Positions 52,550-55,036 of a stretch of DNA of 64,000 bases are shown piece by piece. Under the pieces are notes generated by a model. It saw only the letters and a list, made by a program, of their open reading frames with translations, did no database searches and was not told the origin of the DNA. Made by a program: the position numbers and the translations under genes. The stretch lies in NCBI GenBank assembly GCA_035635555.1, contig DASQAT010000039.1, forward strand, positions 1 to 64,000, in the 5' to 3' direction. Each line of letters opens with the position of its first letter. Position 1 is the stretch's first letter. Source of the stretch: Candidatus Dormiibacterota bacterium (GTDB lineage Bacteria; Acidobacteriota; Polarisedimenticolia; Gp22-AA2).

Positions 52550-53362
52550 ATGAAACGTCGCTGGAACGCTCTCCTGTGGGCGGGCTTCCTGGTCGTTCTT
52601 GCCGCCCCCGTCACCTACCTGACCGTCTTCGTCCGGTTCCCGGTCACGCGGGACCTCCCCTGGGCGACCCTGTTGATCTTCGGCGCGGGCCTCCTCCTCA
52701 TGGTCTTCGGGTTGAGGCGGGCCTTCCGGGAGCCGCAGATCTATCGAGGGAAGATCTCGGGCTCGATCGTCCTGACGGCCGGGGTCGCTCTGTTCGGGCT
52801 GTTCCTTGTTTCGATTTTCTACACACTGCGACAGCTTCCGCCGTCGAACGGCGCGCCGCGAGTCGGCCAGAAGGCCCCGGATTTCACGCTGCCGGACACG
52901 GACGGGAACCCGGTCAGCCTCTCGAAGCTCTTCGAGGCGGAGGCGGGGGGTGGGGCGGGGGCACGGGCCGCGCTCCTGATCTTCTACCGCGGATACTGGT
53001 GACCGCTCTGCAACTCCGAGTTACGGGGTTTCCAGGACCGGCTCGTCGATTTCGACGCCCGACGCGTGCGTCTTGTGGCCATCAGCGTCGATCCACCCGA
53101 GCGGAACCGCGAGCTTTGCGGCAAGCAGGGCTACACGTTCACCTTCCTTTCCGACGTCTCCTCGGATGCCATTCGTCTCTACGACCTCGTCCACGAGAAG
53201 GCCGGGCCGGGCGGAACGGACATCTCCCGTCCCGCCGAATTCCTGATCGATTCCCAGGGAACCGTGCGCTGGGCCAACCTGACCGATTCGATCGCGGTGC
53301 GCGCCCGGCCGGAGCAGGTGCTGAAGATCGTGGACGATCTCAAGCTCGGAGGTCCATCATGA
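52550..53362 (+). CDS. Membrane-anchored peroxiredoxin-like protein with in-frame TGA: candidate selenoprotein (UxxC)
   Basis: Read through a TGA at 53000-53002, the frame gives 270 residues. Three hydrophobic helices (about 5-28, 38-58, 68-92) anchor it. A redoxin/AhpC-TSA domain follows: APRVGQKAPDFTLPDTDGNP, then LLIFYRGYW, the TGA (residue 151), and PLCNSELRGFQDRL. The family has Cys-Pro-x-Cys here (FYRGYWCPxC), so the TGA takes the place of the peroxidatic-type cysteine, giving Sec151-x-x-Cys154. The sequence after it stays family-like (VRLVAISVDPPERNREL, FTFLSDVSSDAIRLYDLV, PAEFLIDSQGTVRW) to a stop overlapping the next ATG. TGGAGA lies 9 bases before ATG 52550. A hairpin follows the TGA. 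Likely a thiol/selenol-dependent peroxidase or reductase facing one side of the inner membrane. Confidence 0.87.
53012..53030 (+). promoter_or_regulatory. Candidate bacterial SECIS hairpin of the peroxiredoxin-like gene
   Basis: AACTCCG (53012-53018) pairs with CGGGGTT (53024-53030), all seven pairs formed with one G-U, around the loop AGTTA. The stem begins 9 bases after the TGA, and the loop G at 53020 lies 18 bases after the A of TGA and is followed by U, as in known bacterial elements with a GU in the loop. Confidence 0.72.
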
Positions 53363-54375
53363 ACTCGTTCCGGCTCTTCCGCCCCGGTCTCGCGGCGTTC
53401 GTCTTCCTGGCGTCGAGCCTGCCCGCAGCAGCCGCCAGCAGGACGATCGAAGGAGTGCCCCGGTTCGGGCATGTCTTCCTGATCGTCGGCGAAAACACCA
53501 CCTACGATCACCTGACGCCGACCAACGCCCCCTACCTCATGGGGTCGATCCGACCGCGGTCCGCCTGGCTCACGGAGTACTACGCGGCAACGCACTGGTC
53601 GCAGGCGAACTACGTCGCCCTGGTGTCGGGGCAGTTCACGCGCTGCGAGCAGCAGGATTACGGCGCCGCATGCCACCAGGACGTGGACAACCTGTTCCAC
53701 CAGCTCGATCTCAGCCGCCTCACCTGGACGACCTGGCTCGAGGGGGGAAGCGCCCGATGCGACACCGGCATGGGGGGGACCTGCGAGTCGAGCACGCCCT
53801 GTCCGCTGACCGGCTTCTACACCACGGGCAACCCCGCCATCCTGTTCGACGACATCGAGGGAGCTTACGGCGTGTGGTCGGCGACCGACCTTTCGCAGGA
53901 ATGTCTGCAGAACGACATCCCGGCGGGCGACCGGACCGACCCGATGGGTTTCTTCAACGCGGCTCTGGCCACAGGCCGCGTCGCGAATTTCAACCTCATC
54001 CTGCCGAACGGCTGTGAAGACGGCGAGGGGAATTGCGCACCGATCAACAACCGCTACACCCAGTTCGACGCGTTCCTGGCGCGGGAGGTCCCGCTGATCG
54101 AAGCCTCGCCCGCGTTCGGCCCGGACGGCGTGATCATCATCGTCTACGACGAGGACGAGAGAGCCGGCGGCCTGGCCAAGAAGAACGGGCTCGCCCAGGG
54201 GGGACACGTCGCGTGCGCGATCCTGAGCGCGCTCGCGGTCCCCGGATCCTACGACGGAGCCTTCTATCATTACAGCGTGCTGCGCATGCTCGAGGATGGA
54301 TTCGATCTGCCCGGCTATCTGGGCGACGCCGGAGCCGTGACGCCGGTCAACACCATCTGGACCGGCGGCTCCTGA
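53359..54375 (+). CDS. Exported phosphoesterase (phospholipase C/acid phosphatase family, PF04185)
   Basis: A 338-aa exported enzyme with a signal peptide (about 1-26, ALA-type AAAAS). The family start is present: FGHVFLIVGENTTYDHL, with Glu-Asn-x-Thr as the metal/nucleophile site of the PF04185 phosphoesterases; THWSQANYVALVSGQ and IIIVYDEDERAGGL provide further metal ligands. Paired cysteines (CEQQDYGAAC, CDTGMGGTCESSTPC) suggest disulfides. The ATG overlaps the stop of the selenoprotein gene (ATGA), so the two are translated together. Acts on phosphate esters in the periplasm; substrate unknown. Confidence 0.85.
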   Translation: MNSFRLFRPGLAAFVFLASSLPAAAASRTIEGVPRFGHVFLIVGENTTYDHLTPTNAPYLMGSIRPRSAWLTEYYAATHWSQANYVALVSGQFTRCEQQDYGAACHQDVDNLFHQLDLSRLTWTTWLEGGSARCDTGMGGTCESSTPCPLTGFYTTGNPAILFDDIEGAYGVWSATDLSQECLQNDIPAGDRTDPMGFFNAALATGRVANFNLILPNGCEDGEGNCAPINNRYTQFDAFLAREVPLIEASPAFGPDGVIIIVYDEDERAGGLAKKNGLAQGGHVACAILSALAVPGSYDGAFYHYSVLRMLEDGFDLPGYLGDAGAVTPVNTIWTGGS

Positions 54376-54403: not shown

Positions 54404-54432
54404 TTGACGATCGACCCGGTCGCCTGTAGGAT
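54404..54432 (+). promoter_or_regulatory. Promoter-like sequence of the superoxide dismutase gene
   Basis: TTGACG (54404-54409) and TAGGAT (54427-54432) are exactly 17 bases apart and lie 40 bases before the sodC start. The -35 matches 5 of 6 consensus bases and the -10 4 of 6. It is one of the clearest promoter matches in the window. Confidence 0.55.
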
Positions 54433-54472
54433 CGTCCGGCATCGAGACCCAGGACAACAGAGGAGAGCCAAC

Positions 54473-55036
54473 GTGAAGAAGACAGTCCGCTTTTTGATCG
54501 GTGTGGCGGTGGTCGCGGGGATGGTGGCGGGGGGGTGCTACGCGGCCGGTGACAAGGCCAAGACAGCCGCCAAGGAGCAGGACAAGAAGGCGGTCGCCGT
54601 CATCCAGTCGAAAAGCGACAGCCACGTGACCGGCGAGGCGACCTTCCGCGAAGAGGGCGGCAAGGTCAATCTCGAGGTCATGATCGTGGGGGCCGAGCCG
54701 GGGCCGCACGCGGTCCACCTGCACGAGAAGGGGGACTGCACCGCGCCGGACGGCGCATCCGCGGGCGGGCACTGGAACCCGACGCACGAGAACCACGGCA
54801 AGTGGGGGACCGCGCCGTTCCATCACGGCGACATCGGCGTCATCGACGTCGGCGCCGACGGCAAGGGGACCCTCACGCTGACGACGGACCTCTGGACGAT
54901 CGGCGGCGCGCCGGAGACCGACGTGGTCGGCAAGGCGGTCATCGTCCACGCCAAGGCGGACGACTTCACGACCCAGCCGACCGGCAATGCCGGCGGGCGT
55001 ATCGCCTGCGGTGTCGTGGAGCTGGCCAAGAAATAG
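54473..55036 (+). CDS. sodC: Cu/Zn superoxide dismutase lipoprotein
   Basis: A 187-aa exported enzyme converting superoxide to oxygen and peroxide. The signal ends in a lipobox-like VAGGC (Cys22), so it is probably lipid-anchored. Copper and zinc ligands follow the family order: PHAVHLHEKGDC (His82, His84; Cys89 for the disulfide), AGGHWNPTHENHG (His100, His108 region), HHGDIGVI with Asp120, and IVHAKADDF. GGRIACGVVEL supplies the second disulfide Cys. Start GTG 54473 has AGGAG 8 bases upstream; the in-frame ATG at 54404 lies on the promoter. Independent transcription but close to the peroxiredoxin-like selenoprotein, which could use the peroxide it makes. Confidence 0.93.
   Translation: MKKTVRFLIGVAVVAGMVAGGCYAAGDKAKTAAKEQDKKAVAVIQSKSDSHVTGEATFREEGGKVNLEVMIVGAEPGPHAVHLHEKGDCTAPDGASAGGHWNPTHENHGKWGTAPFHHGDIGVIDVGADGKGTLTLTTDLWTIGGAPETDVVGKAVIVHAKADDFTTQPTGNAGGRIACGVVELAKK

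Follow-up and report, generated by a model that had tools for sequence, protein, structure and literature searches.

A redoxin frame interrupted by TGA

A stretch of 64,000 nucleotides (hereafter the window) from contig DASQAT010000039.1 of a soil acidobacterium (assembly GCA_035635555.1, 99% complete, 59 contigs) contains a redoxin-like gene with a TGA codon in the middle of its reading frame, which raises the question whether this codon is a stop, a lesion or a codon for selenocysteine. With TGA translated as selenocysteine (Sec, U), the frame runs from 52550 to 53362 on the forward strand, as do all features described below, and encodes 270 residues followed by a TGA stop. Its single in-frame TGA at 53000-53002 specifies residue 151 in the motif FYRGYW-U-PLC. 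The frame, its coordinates, the lone TGA, the retained second cysteine (Cys154, 53009-53011) and an ATGA overlap with the next gene (53359-53362) were all found as originally predicted.

Pfam AhpC-TSA (PF00578) is matched as one domain across the TGA (residues 105-241, 102.9 bits against a gathering score of 26), and the protein also matches PF08534. As PF00578 is over its gathering score and fold matches reach a Z of about 23, the gene is a member of the AhpC/TSA-Redoxin superfamily. An AlphaFold2 model (49 family members) had a mean pLDDT of 94.5 and consists of three N-terminal helices and a complete, ordered redoxin fold from residue 101. The three helices, anticipated by the original prediction, comprise residues 7-25 (52568-52624, hydropathy >1.6), 38-60 (52661-52729, with a strongly positive loop next) and 68-94 (52751-52831), and hydropathy agrees with the model for each. 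The redoxin domain with a PrxQ/AhpE-like fold covers residues 101-268 (52850-53353) according to Pfam, alignment to solved structures, AlphaFold2 and fold matches. That one redoxin-family protein extends on both sides of the TGA was thereby corroborated.

A GTG frame beginning at 53066 could suggest two coupled genes instead, a three-helix peptide that stops at the TGA, followed by a redoxin half with a start of its own. This arrangement would leave the conserved residues just after the TGA (PxCNSELR) untranslated and would split the Pfam domain as well as the predicted fold, each of which runs across the TGA, so that we regard it as very improbable. The overlapping gene downstream (53359-54375) encodes a PF04185 phosphoesterase with a signal-like N-terminus and is not a conserved neighbor. 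The overlap is local; selection on the downstream half is borne out instead by dN/dS, by invariant downstream residues and by the hairpin treated below.

Selenocysteine machinery and conservation of the TGA codon

Absence of SelB and SelC had been named as an argument against a selenoprotein. The genome encodes SelA (542 bits), SelB (333.7 bits, over the cut-off), SelD (365.8 bits) and a tRNA-Sec with the anticodon TCA (UCA). The selD gene (contig C46, 119634-120566) itself has one in-frame TGA and probably encodes a selenoprotein too, and a second redoxin of the genome (contig C35, 9251-9649), whose match (E 4.9e-8) includes one TGA, is a possible further case. Within the phylum, SelB exceeded the curated cut-off in 20 of the 21 genomes bearing the gene versus 253 of 396 overall, an enrichment with a hypergeometric P=0.0008 in which relatedness is not corrected for. 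One gene-bearing genome, which is fragmented and has 7% contamination, gave only a weak SelB match below the cut-off, and SelB matches in three small MAGs (G412, G414 and G415) were likewise under it.

Otherwise TGA is an ordinary stop here: among the 34 longest non-overlapping window frames 23 terminate with it, and in the family it is the stop codon of 33 out of 76 genes. A changed code or tRNA suppression that reads the TGA as another residue, such as Trp or Gly, would fit the open frame before and after the codon. However, the regular use of TGA as a terminator, the full Sec machinery and the presence of Cys, not Trp or Gly, in homologs at this position leave such a reading with hardly any probability.

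Relatives were collected from 84,980 named genomes by a scan which favored neither TGA nor Cys because the search pattern ended one residue before the TGA and the alignment carried X in the TGA column. Each of the 80 top-ranked loci, out of 505 confirmed, has TGA at the same codon and none has Cys; these 80 belong to Acidobacteria, Verrucomicrobia, a Binatota and Deltaproteobacteria/Myxococcota MAGs, and soil is the origin of most. Matches at E<=1e-40 were present in 21 of 396 genomes of the same phylum, with exactly one TGA in each of the 21, and in 388 genomes of Verrucomicrobia the TGA occurred in all three full-length matches (E<1e-96). Among the next-best verrucomicrobial matches (E>1e-34), those showing the motif are Cys proteins with FYRGxWCPxC, mostly without helices. 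The proposed search for Cys or TGA homologs in related genomes thus returned TGA in close relatives and Cys in distant ones only, and alignment to AhpC/TSA proteins with FYRGxWCPxC places that Cys at the same position. Hence the TGA stands where distant relatives have the Cys of this site, and an unrelated residue, the second objection foreseen, was not what homologs carried.

The ratio dN/dS is about 0.20 before and about 0.20 after the TGA, and R147, W150, U151, C154, R227 and P228 are invariant in 49 family sequences. In view of the identical codon in 80/80, 21/21 and 3/3 relatives and of the equal dN/dS on both sides, the TGA is not a product of chance. A pseudogene, or an assembly or sequencing fault, could have arisen easily, since TGA is a single base away from the Cys codons TGC and TGT. 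We consider this explanation already refuted by the conservation of the TGA, which recurs in more than 80 independent assemblies from several phyla; the dN/dS of 0.20 downstream and a hairpin with locked synonymous sites also oppose it, and the probability left to it is negligible.

A maximum-likelihood tree built on the redoxin domain gathers all 63 three-helix members in one Sec-only branch of 66 rows (support 96/91) that includes three other Sec rows, with the Cys rows outside. Verrucomicrobia and acidobacteria from the same order as the window organism share this branch, a pattern that suggests transfer of the gene between phyla. Several verrucomicrobial copies (L076, L080, L088 and others) are nested beside this acidobacterial order.

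Since every close relative found, across several phyla, has the TGA, selenium appears to be fixed in the active site among them. We give even odds to the further-reaching idea of an obligate selenoprotein subfamily, that is a three-helix membrane redoxin which occurs in Acidobacteriota, Verrucomicrobiota and a small number of further soil phyla and in which Cys never takes the place of Sec. To our knowledge, nearly all selenoproteins have Cys-containing homologs. If the idea is correct, Sec might be obligate because peroxide or disulfide chemistry at the membrane or in the periplasm needs selenium, and a Sec-fixed subfamily in abundant soil phyla would show that soil bacteria need selenium at their cell envelope. 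Exchange of Sec for Cys in the window protein would test the reason for Sec retention. The authors of one detection method note that their own homology filter may lose selenoprotein families without Cys homologs (PMC12013277). None of the NCBIfam models reached its cut-off for the window protein. The subfamily, seemingly Sec-fixed, constrained by its hairpin and lacking an NCBIfam model of its own, is thus likely truncated or missed in annotation.

Other redoxins were encountered in these searches. Many further redoxins of the phylum, nine loci among them, have a TGA in an FYRGxWU-P-x-C motif, often with SECIS-like hairpins, and form a broad set of Sec redoxins. A very distant redoxin with several helices and Cys (L158, FYRGNWCPLC) is a Cys analogue of the architecture. 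A plasmid search yielded only distant Cys or ordinary peroxiredoxin (Prx) relatives; a match on a Sinorhizobium plasmid with 96% coverage was rejected, as it is an ordinary Prx-like gene (FYPADWSPVC) and the match extends over sequence outside the gene.

A candidate SECIS hairpin behind the TGA

A candidate SECIS hairpin lies at 53012-53030, with arms AACTCCG (53012-53018) and CGGGGTT (53024-53030) and the loop AGTTA (53019-53023). The arms begin 10 nt and the loop 16 nt after the TGA. The published bSECIS model calls for a loop of 3-9 nt whose first two positions contain a G, a stem of 4-16 bp, a spacing of 16-37 nt and an MFE of <= -7.5 (PMC13188914), and the window hairpin conforms to it with its AGTTA loop, 7 bp, spacing of 16 and MFE of -14.3 (45 nt from the TGA). 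The arrangement CTCCG-AGTTR-CGGRG, with the loop AGTTR exactly 16 nt after the TGA, recurs in 69 of 77 distinct genes.

Codon choice within the hairpin departs strongly from that elsewhere in the same genes: Ser is TCC in 71/77 (21% elsewhere), Leu is TTG or TTA in 70/77 (background 20%), Arg is CGG in 70/70 (23%) and Ser is AGY in 54/54 (36%). By this comparison the synonymous codons of the hairpin are locked. Folding measured against synonymous recodings gave a mean z of -1.33, whereas the four control windows had values between -0.08 and +0.21; genes taken singly give a modest signal, as the window gene does in the hairpin scan (z -1.0, p 0.08). The core 5 bp are paired in 26 of 26 aligned sequences, and two-sided changes affect two of the pairs (in L069 and L030, which retain the AGTTA loop on stems of different sequence). 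Covariation is thin because the hairpin is nearly invariant. A side clade of six loci has a different SECIS-like hairpin, CTGCA-AGGTT-TGCAG, whose loop lies about 23-24 nt instead of 16 nt after the TGA and which represents a natural SECIS shift among orthologs; for five of these loci (L014-L016, L018 and L064) the folding z-test was near zero.

Given the Sec machinery, the TGA in all close relatives, the hairpin with its locked codons and a dN/dS of about 0.20 on both sides, we conclude that the TGA at 53000-53002 very probably encodes selenocysteine. The original interpretation as a candidate selenoprotein is supported overall, and both objections raised with it have fallen away.

Active site, membrane placement and relation to known families

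The best fold matches of the domain are PrxQ/BCP and AhpE peroxiredoxins (rmsd 1.7-2.0), and the closest sequence relatives with a solved structure are thiol peroxidases. When the protein is aligned with PrxQ proteins of solved structure, U151 coincides with the Thr/Ser of PxxxT/SxxC, C154 with the peroxidatic Cys and P228 with the catalytic Arg, residues whose roles in peroxiredoxins are textbook knowledge. The window protein reads R147xxxU151xxC154 in place of the Prx-defining PxxxT/SxxC(U), and the invariant Arg227-Pro228 (53228-53233; alignment to 2cx3) puts Pro where the conserved Prx Arg would stand, which is also the place of the thioredoxin cis-Pro. A Pro at this place together with a CxxC-type motif is the thioredoxin arrangement. 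On these alignments the protein is a Prx-like fold (PrxQ/AhpE) that carries a thioredoxin-like UxxC catalytic motif, and peroxidase activity is not implied by such a site. The earlier label 'peroxiredoxin-like' therefore holds for the fold and not for the active site.

The loops of the membrane part differ in charge, with family mean net charges of +1.9 at the N-terminus, 0 in loop 1, +4.1 in loop 2 and +1.0 after the third helix. By the positive-inside rule loop 2, which follows the second helix, would be cytoplasmic, and the loop charges thus make the outer, periplasmic side of the cytoplasmic membrane the most likely location of the redoxin domain. We read the protein as a putative periplasm-facing, membrane-tethered UxxC oxidoreductase or peroxidase. 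In the mechanism that we propose, comparative sequence evidence indicates that SelB and tRNA-Sec, aided by the SECIS hairpin, read the UGA at 53000 as selenocysteine, and the three helices would hold the protein in the cytoplasmic membrane. By analogy with UxxC chemistry, the U151 selenolate would attack an oxidized substrate, either a protein disulfide or a (lipid) hydroperoxide; resolution by Cys154 would give a selenenylsulfide, and a thiol relay would reduce the latter again. For this reading as a whole, a SelB/SECIS-decoded, three-helix, membrane-tethered redoxin on the outer face with attack by Sec and resolution by Cys154, we estimate a probability of about 85%.

The protein could also be a true peroxidase, a Sec peroxiredoxin which would reduce lipid or hydrogen peroxide at the membrane surface, with Sec as the peroxidatic and Cys154 as the resolving residue. 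The PrxQ/BCP and AhpE fold matches and the thiol peroxidase relatives are in keeping with this, as is a Cu/Zn superoxide dismutase gene (54404-55036) two genes, or about 1 kb, downstream. However, the altered PxxxT/SxxC site and the Pro228 in place of the catalytic Arg argue against it, and superoxide dismutase was not seen as a recurrent neighbor of family genes in the neighbor comparison, so that we hold a true peroxidase to be possible and lean against it.

UxxC Prx-like selenoproteins with a thioredoxin-like active site were first noted in 2005 (PMC1088965), and Prx-like thiol:disulfide oxidoreductases of this kind (PF00578, UxxC/UxxU; PMC1088965, PMC2398784, PMC13188914 Table 1) have Cys homologs in the published families, with 22 Sec and 4 Cys forms in the Sargasso set. 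PF00578 with UxxC, the pattern of such selenoproteins, is what the window protein has. It shares with them the UxxC replacing the Prx TxxU and the thioredoxin-like active site; unlike them, as far as their descriptions go, its family has three transmembrane helices in front and is apparently always Sec. The Redoxin family selenoprotein HEU0032618.1 (PMC13188914) has both PF08534 (59.8 bits in the window protein) and UxxC in common with it and, compared by description, may be the same family. All 11 members matched the SelL-related redox protein model NF040769 weakly (best E 9.5e-18), but with 33.7 bits the window protein is far under the 120-bit cut-off and lies outside that family. Compared with PrxQ/BCP and AhpE (3hjp, 2cx3, 1xxu, 5epf), the domain fold is alike at about 22-32% identity, whereas PxxxTxxC and the catalytic Arg at its place are missing and membrane helices are added. 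ResA and TlpA are membrane-tethered periplasmic CxxC redoxins of the thioredoxin-like type. They resemble the window protein in being membrane-tethered, and the ResA model gives a weak match (34 bits of 170); the window protein differs in having three helices instead of one anchor, a fold nearer to Prx, and Sec. Literature on Acidobacteriota selenoproteins yielded no description of the window protein, and no paper on the three-helix form or its Sec fixation was found. Thus, UxxC Prx-like selenoproteins are already known, and the three-helix, apparently Sec-only subfamily is, as far as we found and judged by the descriptions of published families, undescribed.

In the window the gene is accompanied by genes for a GNAT protein, the PF04185 phosphoesterase, the Cu/Zn superoxide dismutase and a sigma factor. 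The comparison of neighbors across phyla found none that is conserved and hence gave no pointer to a pathway. In Verrucomicrobia, about 13 loci (among them L085, L086, L087, L089, L093 and L131) have an oligopeptide-transporter-like gene (OPT-type, named from sequence by eye) directly upstream on the same strand, possibly in one operon with the selenoprotein gene.
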